NCBI GenBank assembly: GCA_023150915.1
Contig: JAKLKA010000080.1
Coordinates: 1-32,434, forward strand
From: Polyangiaceae bacterium
Lineage (GTDB): Bacteria > Myxococcota_A > Polyangia > Polyangiales > Polyangiaceae
Direction: 5' to 3'
Length of the DNA: 32,434 bases
In this document: piece by piece, positions 7,370-14,291 of the stretch
Position numbering within the stretch: the stretch's first letter is position 1
Layout: every line of letters starts with the position of its first letter
The notes under the pieces: generated by a model
Databases searched by the model: none
Told to the model about the DNA's origin: nothing
Seen by the model: the letters and a program-made list of their open reading frames with translations, nothing else
Translations under genes and position numbers: made by a program

Positions 7370-7894
7370 ATGCTGCTCAGCGCCGACGCCAGCCTGCTCT
7401 TTCCCCGGCCCGTGGTCTTCGCTGCATACCGCGACCACTTGGCCGACCTGGTCGAGTTCTTGCCGAACATCCGACGAATCGACGTGCAGCGGCGCGAAGA
7501 CCGCGGCGCAATCACCCAGCTCTTGAACGAATGGCATGGCGGCGGCGAGATTCCGGCCGCGGCTCGGGCGTTCTTGAGCGAGAGCATGCTCAGCTGGTCG
7601 GACCACGCCACCTGGAATCAGGACGAGTGGACGTGCGACTGGCGGATCGAGACCCATGCCTTCACCGAAGCCGTGCACTGCGCCGGCAAGAACCGCTTCG
7701 TCGAGATCGACGGCGGCACACGGCTCGAGATCCGGGGCGAGCTCACCATCGACGGCGCCAAGCTCAAGGGGGTGCCGAAGTTGCTCTCGAAGAAGGTCGC
7801 CTCTACGGTCGAGGACTTGCTGGTCAAGAAGATCACGCCGAACCTGCTCAGCGTCAGCGACGGCCTGCAGAAGTACCTGGAGCAGAAGCGGTGA
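7370..7894 (+). CDS. SRPBCC/START-like domain protein (DUF2505-like)
   Basis: This encodes 174 residues without signal peptide. The start PRPVVFAAYRDHLADLVEFLPNI fits the first strand and helices of the SRPBCC (Bet v1-like) fold. Alternating strands follow, then a long C-terminal helix (STVEDLLVKKITPNLLSV), as in DUF2505-type proteins. This fold forms a hydrophobic cavity for lipids or other ligands, but the ligand here is unknown. The ATG immediately follows the TGA of the preceding gene, and the stop overlaps the moaD start by 4 bases, so translational coupling is likely. Confidence 0.65.
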   Translation: MLLSADASLLFPRPVVFAAYRDHLADLVEFLPNIRRIDVQRREDRGAITQLLNEWHGGGEIPAAARAFLSESMLSWSDHATWNQDEWTCDWRIETHAFTEAVHCAGKNRFVEIDGGTRLEIRGELTIDGAKLKGVPKLLSKKVASTVEDLLVKKITPNLLSVSDGLQKYLEQKR

Positions 7895-8142
7895 AGAAGG
7901 TGCGCGTGCTGTACTTCGCCGGGGTGCGGGACCTGGTCGGCATCCCCGACGAAGAGCTCGAGCTTCCGGACGAAACCTGCAACCTCGATGCGTTCGTGCG
8001 GCTGTTGGTCGCGGCGCGTCCGGCCCTCGACGGGCGGCTCGGGGGCGTGCGGTTCGCGGTGAACGAGACCTTCGCCGTCGGGCCCGATCCGGTGGCGCCG
8101 GGCGACGTCATCGCCGTGATCCCCCCGGTGGCGGGCGGCTGA
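7891..8142 (+). CDS. moaD: MoaD/ThiS-type sulfur carrier, molybdopterin synthase small subunit
   Basis: This encodes 83 residues with the beta-grasp pattern VRVLYFAGVRDLVG at the N-terminus and the diagnostic PPVAGG C-terminus. In the family the terminal Gly-Gly is adenylated and thiocarboxylated to carry sulfur into molybdopterin. Size and motif fit MoaD better than ThiS. No MoaE, MoeB or other cofactor gene is in the window, so its partner must be elsewhere. The GTG start overlaps the preceding TGA in a GTGA arrangement. It sits between a SRPBCC protein and an RNase HII-like protein, which gives no obvious pathway link. Confidence 0.85.
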   Translation: MKKVRVLYFAGVRDLVGIPDEELELPDETCNLDAFVRLLVAARPALDGRLGGVRFAVNETFAVGPDPVAPGDVIAVIPPVAGG

Positions 8143-8172: not shown

Positions 8173-9099
8173 GTGTCCGCCAGCTTCCGCATCGGTGTCG
8201 ACGAGAACGGACTGGGGGCGCGCCTCGGACCAATGGTCGTCACGGCGGTGCTGGCTCGGGTCGACCCGAGCGGCGCACGCCTGCTCAGCCGGAAGCTGCC
8301 GAAGCGCATCGCCGAGCTGATCGGCGACAGCAAGCAGCGTGTCTCGCACGACGACGTCGCGCTGGGCGAGGCTTGGGCCCGCGCGCTGGTCGACCCTGAG
8401 GCACCTTGCCCCGAGGCCGTCTTCGGTCGCCTTTCGCTGGAAGGTGTCGAGCGCTTGGCGGTGCCCTGCCCCGAGCACGTACACGCCCAGTGCTGGTCGG
8501 CGCACGGCGAATCGTTCAGCGCCGAGCACCAGCTGGTGGCAGGCGCCCTGCGGGTGCGGGCCGAGCTCGCGGCGCGGGGCGTGGAAGTCCTGTCGGTCAA
8601 GAGCAGCGTGATCTGCACCGAGCGCCTCAACGCAGCGCTCGCCGCGGGCAAGAACCGGTTCGTCGCCGATCTGCACGCGATGGAGTCCCTGGTGCTCGCG
8701 CACCGCGCACAGGCCCAGGCCGACGTCGTGGCGATCTGCGGCAAGGTCGGAGGCATGGCCGACTACTCGCGCTTCTTCGGCCCGCTCGGCGGCCGCCTGC
8801 ACGTGGTGCTCGAGCAACGCCGCGCCCACAGTGCCTATCGCTTTCCGGGCTTGGGCGAGCTCCACTTCGTCCGCGACGCCGACGCCTCGGACGCCCTGGT
8901 GATGCTGGCGTCGCTGGTGGGGAAGTGGGTGCGCGAGCTGCTCATGGCGCGGGTGGCGCGCTGGTACGACGACGCTGGGGCTCCCAGCGGGTATCACGAC
9001 CCCGTCACCGCGCGATTCGTCGAGGCCACGGCTCTGGTCCGCCATGGGCGCCGGGTGCCCGACACCTGCTTCGAGCGGGTCAGGGCCCGCGATGAGTGA
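8173..9099 (+). CDS. Divergent RNase HII-like protein
   Basis: This encodes 308 residues with RNase HII landmarks in order. GVDENGLGARLGPMVV at 8-23 corresponds to the DE-G-G-GP motif (Asp10, Glu11). DSK lies at 52-54. An AM motif is at 169-170. VRDADASDALVMLASLVGKWVRELLM (233-258) aligns without gaps to the fourth-Asp helix of E. coli RnhB (Asp237, Lys251). The C-terminal SGY...HG...CF resembles the RnhB tail KGY...HG...SF. Family enzymes cut RNA in RNA-DNA hybrids using four acidic residues. Here the expected third Asp (DG in RnhB) appears to be Cys189-Gly, and the GRG substrate motif is GLG. Activity is therefore uncertain. It has an insertion of about 60 residues before the AM motif, compared with about 200 residues in classical RNase HII. 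The alignment was done from memory of RnhB. The start GTG lacks a clear ribosome-binding site. Confidence 0.6.
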   Translation: MSASFRIGVDENGLGARLGPMVVTAVLARVDPSGARLLSRKLPKRIAELIGDSKQRVSHDDVALGEAWARALVDPEAPCPEAVFGRLSLEGVERLAVPCPEHVHAQCWSAHGESFSAEHQLVAGALRVRAELAARGVEVLSVKSSVICTERLNAALAAGKNRFVADLHAMESLVLAHRAQAQADVVAICGKVGGMADYSRFFGPLGGRLHVVLEQRRAHSAYRFPGLGELHFVRDADASDALVMLASLVGKWVRELLMARVARWYDDAGAPSGYHDPVTARFVEATALVRHGRRVPDTCFERVRARDE

Positions 9100-12224: not shown

Positions 12225-14291
12225 ATGAGCAGGGAAACGAAAGAACCTGCCACGCCGTTCGGCCCCTTCGTGCTGGAACGGCGCCTCGCCGTGGGTGGCA
12301 GTGCCGAGGTGTTCCTGGCTCGGCCGAAGACCGGCACCGTGCCGGCGCCCAAGCTGGTGGTCAAGCGCCTCTTGACCGACAAGAACGAGGACCAGTTCGA
12401 CGTGCTCAATCACGAAGCCGACCTGAACCGCGCCATCTCGCACCAGAACGTGGTGGTGGTGTTCGGCGCCGGCATGGTCGGCCAAGAGCCCTATCTGGCA
12501 ATGGAGTACGTCGAGGGCGTCGACCTCTATCGTCTGCTGAGACACCTCGAGAGCGAGCAGCGCCGGCTTCCATTGGACGTGGCCGTGCACGTCACGCGCT
12601 CGATGGCGGCGGCCCTCTCGGCGGTCCACGCCGCCCGCAACTCCGACGGCGTGGCGCTGGGCATCGTCCATCGCGACGTGACGCCTTCGAACGTGTACCT
12701 GTCGGTCGACGGCGACGTGAAGCTGGGGGACTTCGGCATCGCCCGCGTGAGCGAGCAGCTGCGCCCGCCCTCGCGCGACGCCGGGCTCAAGGGAAAGTTC
12801 GGCTATCTGGCCCCCGAGCAGATCGCCGGCGAGCCCTTCGACCACCGCGCCGATCTGTTCGCGCTGGGCTCCATTCTGGGTGAGATGGTGCTGGGCGAAC
12901 GCGTCTTCCCCGGCAGCGGGCAGCTGGCGGTGTTGCTCGCCATTCGCGATGCGAACATCGAGCCGCTGCGCGCCCAGGCGCAGCGCATGCCGCCGGGGTT
13001 CTTCGCGATCTGCGAGAAGACCCTGGCGCGCAGCCCCGGCGATCGCTACCAGGCGGCGTCGGAGCTGGCCCAGGCTCTGGCGCCCTTCGACGCGCCCGGC
13101 GCGCGGGCGGCGCTGGCCGAGCTGGTGCGTGATGCGTCGGACTCTAAGCAGCTGGCGCGCAAGATCAAGGACAGCGTGGACCGCATGCGCGCCGTCGCGC
13201 GCCGGTTGACGCCGAACCCGGACATGGCCGAATCGGTGCCGCCCATGGCGCTCGCGGCCCGGCCCACGGCACCCGCCGGTCCGCGCGCCTTCGGCCCCCA
13301 GCCCACCGTCCGCTCGGCCGACAGCGTCGAGGTCTCGCGCGTTCGCCGCACCGATGGGCGCGAGCTCGAGGGGCTCGCGCTGCCGCGCCTGCTCGAGTTG
13401 GTCGCCACCGGCGAGCTGACGGGCGACGATGCCGTCGCTTTCGGCGAGGGCGGCTTCTGCAAGATCCGCGACCACGCCGAGCTCTCTCGGCATCTCTTGC
13501 CCTCGACCACGCAGACCACCCGCGACCTGCACGCCCCGGGGGCGCCCGACTATCGAGCGCTGCTCTCGGATACGCCCATGTTGGAAGTGCTGGCCAAGAT
13601 GCGGCAAGAGCGCGAGACGGGCGCGCTGTTCGTGGAGCGGGCGGATCGCACCGGCGCGCCCCAGCGTAAAGAGCTCTACCTGCGCGGCGGGCGACTGCAC
13701 CATGTGGCCTCGACCGACCGCACCGAGCTCTTGGGTGAGTACCTGGTGCGCCGGCAGGCGCTGTCGCGGCAGCAGCTGGAGCAAGCCCTGGCGTCGCTCT
13801 CGCGCTTCGGCGGCCGGCTGGGCGACACCGTGGTCGGCCTGGGGTTCGTGGAGGCGATGGATGTCTTCCGCGCGATCCGCGATCAGGGGCGCGACCGCGT
13901 GGCGGCGCTGTGCGGCTGGAAGCGCGGCTCGGTCGTGTTCTATCGCAGCACCGACCCCGGTCACGTCGAGTTCCCGCTCGATCTCGATCTGTCGAGCCCG
14001 ATGATGGCCGGCGCCATCGTGCAGTCGAGTGGCGATCCGCGCCTGCTCTTGCCGGGCGACGACACTCCACTCGTTCCCGGGCCGCGACACTACGCCGCGT
14101 TCGACACCGCAGAGGTCGGCACGGCACCGGTCTCGCTGCGCATGCTCCCGACGCTGGCCACACAACGGCTCTCCGTCGCCGAGGCCGTGCACCGCCTCAC
14201 CACGCCGCGCCCCGCAGAGCGCGTGATCGGCGACAAAGAAGCGCACGCCGCCCTGGTCGCCGCGAAGGTGCTTGGCTGGGTCGAGTACTAG
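12225..14291 (+). CDS. Soluble Ser/Thr protein kinase with GYF2-like and DUF4388/PATAN-like domains
   Basis: This encodes 688 residues. The kinase domain (about 14-288) has a Gly-loop GGSAEVF (24-30), Lys47, helix-C Glu64, HRDVTPSN (149-156), DFG (169-171) and APE (196-198). All catalytic residues are present. HRDVTPSNV is a common myxobacterial variant of HRDLKPENI. A linker leads to a GYF2-like segment (about 370-423) and a C-terminal DUF4388/PATAN-like region (about 447-600), beginning with the LEVLAKMRQERETGALFVER pattern. There is no transmembrane helix, so it is cytoplasmic. Such domains are believed to mediate protein interactions in myxobacterial signalling; the target is unknown. It is divergent from the cytochrome gene, with 100 bp between them. 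No clear ribosome-binding site precedes ATG 12225. Confidence 0.88.
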   Translation: MSRETKEPATPFGPFVLERRLAVGGSAEVFLARPKTGTVPAPKLVVKRLLTDKNEDQFDVLNHEADLNRAISHQNVVVVFGAGMVGQEPYLAMEYVEGVDLYRLLRHLESEQRRLPLDVAVHVTRSMAAALSAVHAARNSDGVALGIVHRDVTPSNVYLSVDGDVKLGDFGIARVSEQLRPPSRDAGLKGKFGYLAPEQIAGEPFDHRADLFALGSILGEMVLGERVFPGSGQLAVLLAIRDANIEPLRAQAQRMPPGFFAICEKTLARSPGDRYQAASELAQALAPFDAPGARAALAELVRDASDSKQLARKIKDSVDRMRAVARRLTPNPDMAESVPPMALAARPTAPAGPRAFGPQPTVRSADSVEVSRVRRTDGRELEGLALPRLLELVATGELTGDDAVAFGEGGFCKIRDHAELSRHLLPSTTQTTRDLHAPGAPDYRALLSDTPMLEVLAKMRQERETGALFVERADRTGAPQRKELYLRGGRLHHVASTDRTELLGEYLVRRQALSRQQLEQALASLSRFGGRLGDTVVGLGFVEAMDVFRAIRDQGRDRVAALCGWKRGSVVFYRSTDPGHVEFPLDLDLSSPMMAGAIVQSSGDPRLLLPGDDTPLVPGPRHYAAFDTAEVGTAPVSLRMLPTLATQRLSVAEAVHRLTTPRPAERVIGDKEAHAALVAAKVLGWVEY

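Follow-up and report, generated by a model that had tools for sequence, protein, structure and literature searches.

Can a protein that carries much of the RNase HII signature, and lacks one of its catalytic carboxylates, be filed as RNase HII, and does it do that enzyme's work in the bacterium that encodes it? The question is raised by one gene in the window, which is the whole stretch of DNA analysed here (32,434 nucleotides). A first-pass annotation had described the product as a divergent RNase HII-like protein with an altered active site, and this description holds: the predicted fold is that of a type 2 RNase H, and both the third acid and the GRG motif are absent.

8173..9099, + strand: three-carboxylate RNase H2-like gene, an open reading frame of 308 aa from GTG to TGA

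Profile matches and selection

The profile search that the first-pass annotation had proposed gave a divided answer. In hmmscan the window protein scored 28.7 bits against Pfam RNase_HII (PF01351), above the gathering score of 25.8, with an alignment covering residues 7-29 only, but its best NCBIfam match, TIGR00729, reached 33.2 bits, below the cut-off of 123.3, and the protein falls far below the NCBIfam RNase HII equivalog cut-offs generally. In a six-frame search of the genome the same protein scored just 18.7 bits with PF01351. Close gene pairs gave dN/dS ratios of 0.18 and 0.29 (NG86) and, for one pair, 0.05 (YN00); ratios below 1 indicate purifying selection on the family gene.

Predicted fold

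The AlphaFold (AF2) model of the window protein, made with 77 sequences, has a pLDDT of 93.9 and a pTM of 0.93. In VIA-align the whole-chain model matched 25 type 2 RNase H entries with Z scores of 11.4-17.1, and type 1 entries at about 5-6, with a maximum of 6.3. Two matches tied as best at Z 17.1, Bst-RNase HIII (3asm; 201 residues, rmsd 3.0) and M. jannaschii RNase HII (1eke_B; 207 residues, rmsd 3.2), and human RNase H2A and E. coli RNase HII scored 16.3 and 13.9. All 28 Foldseek matches at E 0.001 were type 2 RNases H. By its modelled fold, the window protein belongs to the type 2 RNase H superfamily. The first-pass annotation had named two findings that would speak against its reading, a conserved third Asp and the lack of an RNase H fold; neither was seen, since Gly190 is invariant and the fold scores Z 17.1.

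Active-site residues

Conservation was scored in two alignments that overlap in organisms and both include the window protein. The 46-sequence set was built without two copies of the window gene (L031, L032) and two incomplete sequences (L048, L050), but with L046, whose C-terminus is cut. From 80 named loci, L120 (frameshift) and L092 and L136 (the match runs past its own stop) were left out, and the second set holds 78 sequences. Alignment A2 is without L148 (partial), and A5 holds 73 of the 77 listed fragments.

8200..8205, + strand: D10-E11, the first pair of catalytic carboxylates, where strand 4-12 ends; 46/46
8209..8217, + strand: G13-L14-G15 where GRG is expected; Leu in 44, Met in 1 and Val in 1 of 46, both Gly invariant
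8326..8334, + strand: DSK motif, residues 52-54; 46/46
8737..8742, + strand: C189-G190, with G190 at the predicted position of the third catalytic Asp (register from structures and the relative L171); C189 43/46, G190 46/46
8881..8883, + strand: D237, fourth carboxylate, aligned with the ADA motif of 1eke; Asp in 45 and Glu in 1 of 46
8989..8994, + strand: G273-Y274, 2'-OH-sensing Tyr motif, aligned with SGY of 1eke; 46/46

Of the motifs that the first-pass annotation had listed, DE (10-11), DSK (52-54), AM (169-170), D237, K251, GY (273-274) and the C-terminal CF are present. It had also correctly read GRG as GLG, which occupies residues 13-15. In the model, strand 1 spans residues 4-12 and is closed by D10-E11. 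The counterpart of D237 in M. jannaschii 1eke we take to be its D149; in the 78-sequence set this position is Asp in 74 and Glu in 4. K251, R254, S272 and D276 are also invariant (46/46). A Pro follows GxG in 37 of 46 sequences, and the window protein has Ala after GLG.

The third carboxylate is lost in every aligned family member, the very distant relative L171 aside. Neither the 46- nor the 78-sequence set has a conserved acid at positions 188-192, where single acids occur at 188 in L047 and L103 only, and Gly190 is invariant in both overlapping sets (46/46 and 78/78).

Register of the third carboxylate

Because sequence aligners misplace the region of the third Asp, we read its register from a truncated model. 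A comparison of profiles with canonical RNase HII covered just the stretch from the fourth Asp to past the Tyr, and MAFFT, run in three modes, put the third-Asp region in the wrong place. The truncated model (residues 1-191; pLDDT 91.1, and 56 at the last residue) pairs residue 191 with residue 142 of human RNASEH2A (3puf_J, 8yjz_H), 181 of Ta-RNase H3 (4py5), 113 of the M. jannaschii enzyme, 106 of those of T. kodakaraensis and P. horikoshii, 102 of A. fulgidus, 109 of E. coli, 203 of Bst-RNase HIII and 180 of Aquifex RNase H3. The rows that show this register less directly are 3p5j and 3kio (mouse sequence), which end at 143, and human 3p56_D, which ends far off at 169; mouse RNase H2A numbering runs one higher than human. 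Type 2 rows score Z 4.7 to 6.7 against the truncated model, unrelated rows score similarly, and the register leans on the agreement among rows together with L171.

Comparisons with characterized RNases H draw on passages of three papers (PMC3025331, PMC7028304, PMC4132731). Those passages give human Asp141 and Ta-RNase H3 Asp180 (PMC4132731) as the catalytic third carboxylate, and residue 191 aligns with the residue after each, so the missing Asp corresponds to Gly190. The whole-chain model agrees with this register, as its strand 185-191 is followed by V192-G193 in the way that human strand 135-142 is followed, according to the same passages, by V143-G144. L171 reads VVCDRIGG where the window protein reads AICGKVGG, with Asp at position 190. 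In this modelled register Gly190 stands in place of the third catalytic Asp and Cys189 is its neighbour. The first-pass annotation was thus right that the third acid is missing, but had placed the site at Cys189.

Cys189 was considered as a replacement metal ligand and set aside: it is Cys in 43, Ala in 2 and Leu in 1 of 46 sequences, and in the register it lies next to the catalytic position. Given this variation in 3/46 it is no general substitute ligand. Other candidate third ligands are E66 (Gln in 4/77), D166, D235 (variable in 3/46) and D276; no other invariant acid was placed at the site.

L171 comes from a viral contig (IMGVR_UViG_3300036766_002130) and is 23% identical to the window protein. 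It shares DENGYG, DSK, VVCDRIGG, GKYVRE and GY, and differs from the family in keeping Asp at the third position and in having no Cys aligned with C148 or C299. A search of phages with L171 found no match, a search of plasmids with the window protein found none, and predicted viral structures gave no match at E 0.001. A phage or plasmid origin was rejected on the phage and plasmid results, the viral-contig relative being a single one.

A helical insertion with conserved cysteines

Between the DSK motif and the third strand the family carries a helical insertion, and four Cys, two of them inside it, are conserved.

8341..8580, + strand: helical insertion, residues about 57-136, with helices 63-134 between DSK and strand 137-147
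8467..8469, + strand: C99, insertion Cys; 46/46 and 77/78
8491..8493, + strand: C107, insertion Cys; 46/46 and 78/78
8614..8616, + strand: C148, just past strand 3; 46/46 and 78/78
9067..9069, + strand: C299, C-terminal Cys; 45/45 of the sequences with a residue there, and 78/78

In the truncated model the chain of the window protein up to the third position exceeds that of the human and M. jannaschii enzymes by 73-75 residues. The extra residues of the first-pass annotation are therefore real, but they number about 73-75 rather than 60 and lie between DSK and strand 3. By eye, 13 more distant members have Cys in similar contexts (L185 was read only to before its C-terminus). Four conserved Cys suggest a metal site, and our guess from the alignment is that C99, C107, C148 and C299 may form a structural one that anchors the insertion.

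Distribution and proposed displacement of canonical RNase HII

A separate housekeeping rnhB had been expected elsewhere in the genome. We found none: in the window's genome (8.0 Mb, 98.8% complete) PF01351 has no match at E 0.001, and a search to E 10 returned the window gene alone (PF01351 18.7 bits, TIGR00729 18.8 bits). The idea that a normal enzyme is kept alongside a repurposed paralogue consequently fails for this genome.

The family is present in 51 of 59 genomes sampled from genus to order level, the window's own included, and canonical RNase HII, counted when over 100 bits, in 8 of 59. Both occur in 3 genomes (G023, G035, G048), the family only in 48, the canonical enzyme only in 5 (G028, G038, G044, G045, G058) and neither in 3 (G003, G052, G057; 80, 82 and 88% complete), giving a Fisher p of 5.4e-4 that ignores relatedness. 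For the 50 genomes at least 90% complete the counts are 44 with the family only, 4 canonical only, 2 both and 0 neither (Fisher p 6.5e-5, relatedness again ignored). The two states also occur side by side within bacterial families: in f3, G038 and G058 carry the canonical gene, G053 the variant and G048 both; in f10, G045 is canonical and G051 variant; in f1, canonical G028 sits among variants. RNase HI was found in 53 of the 59 genomes, the window's own among them. No canonical copy over the cut-off was found in three complete Sorangium cellulosum chromosomes and a Polyangium fumosum draft (4 of the 5 genomes searched).

In a phylum-wide sample of 282 genomes, the family is found in 40 of 42 members of the order among the genomes listed. 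Elsewhere in the sample, matches over 200 bits occur in four genomes (G191, G277, G235 and G059), one of them summed over two pieces, and weaker matches resemble canonical RNase HII at the ten places read. PF01351 matches at 1e-6 in 229/282 genomes. Twelve of the 282 have neither PF01351 nor a strong family match; none of these is in the order, and one, G255, is in the class and 92% complete. In the bacterial family of G277, another family of the class, the gene is present in 14/14 genomes and CGK in 12/12 proteins inspected. A genome collection yielded 182 stretches that encode a relative; the titles among 80 of the 182 include Polyangiaceae, Sorangium, Polyangium, Minicystis, Myxococcales, Deltaproteobacteria, a single 'Nannocystis exedens' bin and a single 'Proteobacteria'. 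We infer from these titles that the order, a myxobacterial one, is Polyangiales. Among the literature matches listed, none reported on RNase HII of these bacteria or described a family without the third Asp, which is no proof of absence.

Several canonical or near-canonical copies are themselves unusual. Canonical RNases HII of the same order (L051-L057) are without GRG, having GMS in six and GMG in one; by eye they retain the other acids. The copy of canonical type in G023 (L058:812-1450), a draft genome 88% complete that also has the family gene, has lost D-E (IGGAGMS). RNases HII of other families of the class (L155-L159) have an archaeal-like GRGPxLGP and keep D-E and the third Asp, with Glu as the fourth acid by eye; these may be the nearest normal relatives. 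In Minicystis rosea the family gene is frameshifted (L120:4001-4923) and a second RNase HII-like gene (L161:1297-2127) has GVG and no clear fourth acid. We considered this species as a natural complementation case and dropped it, as the second gene is odd and a sequencing error could account for the frameshift.

Comparison with known type 2 enzymes

With archaeal RNase HII and eukaryotic RNase H2A (1eke, 1i39, 3puf) the family shares the fold (Z 15.9-17.1 over 189-207 residues), DE, DSK and the fourth Asp; it has in common with the archaeal enzymes SGY followed by DP, and with human RNase H2A the V-G loop after strand 4. It differs from them in having Gly for the third Asp, Leu, Met or Val for the Arg of GRG, about 75 inserted residues and four additional conserved Cys. 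Bacterial RNase HII (RnhB; E. coli 7uwe, T. maritima 3o3f) is alike in fold (Z 13.5-13.9) and, given the complementary distribution, in genomic place, whereas the third Asp and the GRG Arg are replaced, the insertion and Cys are extra, and the scores lie far below the NCBIfam equivalog cut-offs. RNase HIII (3asm, 4py5) has the same fold (Z 15.0-17.1) and GxG, but the family lacks its N-terminal substrate-binding domain, keeps the Tyr and misses the third Asp.

As for membership, D-E, DSK, the fourth carboxylate (ahead of the last core helix) and the Tyr of RNase HII are all there, and the third carboxylate, expected where strand 4 ends, and GRG are not; of the RNase HIII features GxG is found, and the N-terminal substrate-binding domain and the set of four carboxylates are missing. 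Since the third carboxylate and GRG were looked for and are absent, filing the window protein as RNase HII is not warranted, although it may work like one.

Possible function and alternative explanations

We put at about even odds (probability roughly 0.5) that these proteins form a distinct type 2 RNase H family, with three carboxylates, GxG and a Cys-bearing insertion, that displaced canonical RNase HII in most of the order and acts as a metal-dependent nuclease nicking at junctions. The fold, the residues and the distribution are what the analysis shows; activity, substrate, metal use and repair role we infer. By analogy with studied enzymes, the family enzyme is probably junction-specific. 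Passages of PMC3025331 report that yeast mutants of the third and fourth Asp lose hybrid cleavage and keep junction cleavage (Jeong 2004, as cited there). Taken with the distribution, the features retained for metal A and junction sensing make displacement of RNase HII by an RNase H2 of the junction type the best reading. A more specific proposal, which we hold tentatively and rate somewhat short of even, is that this is a natural RNase H2 that cuts at ribonucleotide-DNA junctions although its DED(D/E) site, described as 'absolutely conserved', has no third Asp, with the metal B site missing or rebuilt and perhaps helped or gated by a Cys-bound metal, and that it took the place of RNase HII in most of the order as well as in neighbouring families.

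In T. maritima RNase H2, according to the same passages, metal A is bound by D18, the E19 carbonyl and two phosphates, and metal B by D18, E19 and D107 (PMC3025331). The family enzyme would nick 5' of the ribonucleotide at an RNA-DNA junction, and ribonucleotide excision repair would start there. Metal ion A would be kept, held by the D10 side chain, the E11 carbonyl and two substrate phosphates, with the backbone distorted by Tyr274; metal ion B, bound in RNase H2 by D1, E2 and D3, would be weakened or lost, or else coordinated by a different ligand. The family keeps the features that metal A and junction sensing require and lacks part of those required for metal B.

Several observations count against the displacing junction nuclease. 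In the passages of PMC3025331, the T. maritima mutant D107N, altered at this same position, has neither metal B nor activity, and two archaeal enzymes mutated in the third Asp are likewise inactive. In the passages on the GRG motif, R22A is mild on most substrates and slightly lowers single-ribonucleotide cleavage, the very activity proposed here. Three genomes (G023, G035, G048) carry both genes, and the window protein has Ala after GLG. With RNase HI present and 12/282 genomes without either gene, loss of RNase HII may also be tolerated.

The inactive mutants also favour a rival in which the protein binds RNA-DNA junctions or R-loops but does not cut them, serving as a sensor, recruiter or protector, and canonical RNase HII was lost because RNase HI together with nucleotide excision repair is enough. 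Mutation of the residue that the family has lost inactivates the T. maritima and archaeal enzymes, RNase HI is present in 53/59 genomes, and uvrA lies in the flank of 10/80 and dksA of 21/80 named loci. A dead enzyme, however, should let its catalytic residues drift, and D10, E11, DSK and K251 are kept in 46/46 and D237 in 45/46; moreover, each of the 50 order-level genomes at least 90% complete carries either the family or canonical RNase HII. We regard such a pseudo-nuclease as unlikely, though a serious contender. The mere nucleic-acid binder that the first-pass annotation had envisaged is made less likely by the invariance of the first two carboxylates (D1, E2), DSK and the Tyr.

Slightly less probable still, in our judgement, is an active nuclease of another specificity, which would cut inside RNA/DNA hybrids as RNase HIII does or read a new substrate with its insertion. 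The large conserved insertion and the tied best structural match to RNase HIII (Z 17.1) speak for it, as does GxG in place of GRG, the rule in RNases H3 in the passages of PMC4132731. Yet Tyr and the Pro after GxG are described in the passages drawn on as specificity residues of the RNase H2 type, and here Tyr274 is invariant and Pro follows GxG in 37/46; with strand 1 starting at residue 4 there is no room for the RNase HIII N-domain; and the yeast third-Asp mutants lose hybrid rather than junction cleavage (passages of PMC3025331). That the protein is an ordinary RNase HII whose third Asp was missed by misalignment is very improbable: the insertion does make sequence aligners place the region badly, but no acid is conserved at 188-192 in 46 or 78 sequences and the structural register gives Gly190.

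Many myxobacteria seem to have exchanged the usual enzyme that removes stray ribonucleotides from DNA for an unusual relative without one of the four acidic residues regarded as essential, so that either there is an exception to the known chemistry or DNA repair takes another course in these bacteria. A bacterial order in which most members depend on a variant with no third Asp, and usually have no normal RNase HII, would provide a natural enzyme in which to test whether metal B is needed, and a comparison set is ready in related genomes with the canonical gene only, the variant only or both. If the protein is inactive, these bacteria would be a natural case of life without RNase HII.

Genomic neighbourhood

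The gene had been placed in an operon with MoaD and a MATE transporter. The spacing in the window is indeed tight, with the MATE ATG at 9092 overlapping the stop of the RNase H-like gene, but the order is not kept in most related loci examined, and we rejected a functional operon on that ground.

7891..8142, + strand: MoaD, molybdopterin synthase small subunit, neighbour only; TIGR01682 71.7 bits
9092..10513, + strand: MATE transporter, neighbour only; TIGR00797 180.7 bits, scanned from 9080

Among the 80 named loci, MATE occurs in 15, MoaD in 11, dksA in 21 and uvrA in 10 of the flanks retrieved, whose length is limited at some loci; among 17 order-level loci the counts are MATE 0, MoaD 0, dksA 4, uvrA 2 and RNase HI 3. 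As no context is general across loci, the gene seems to stand alone, and with gene order not kept no repair partner supports the repair role. The three order-level loci (of 17) with RNase HI within a few kb of the family gene are L036, L044 and L045. In the window, an upstream open reading frame (7370-7894) matches DUF2505 weakly, its 22.1 bits falling short of the cut-off of 26.9, and positions 12225-14291 encode a Ser/Thr protein kinase with a DUF4388 domain.
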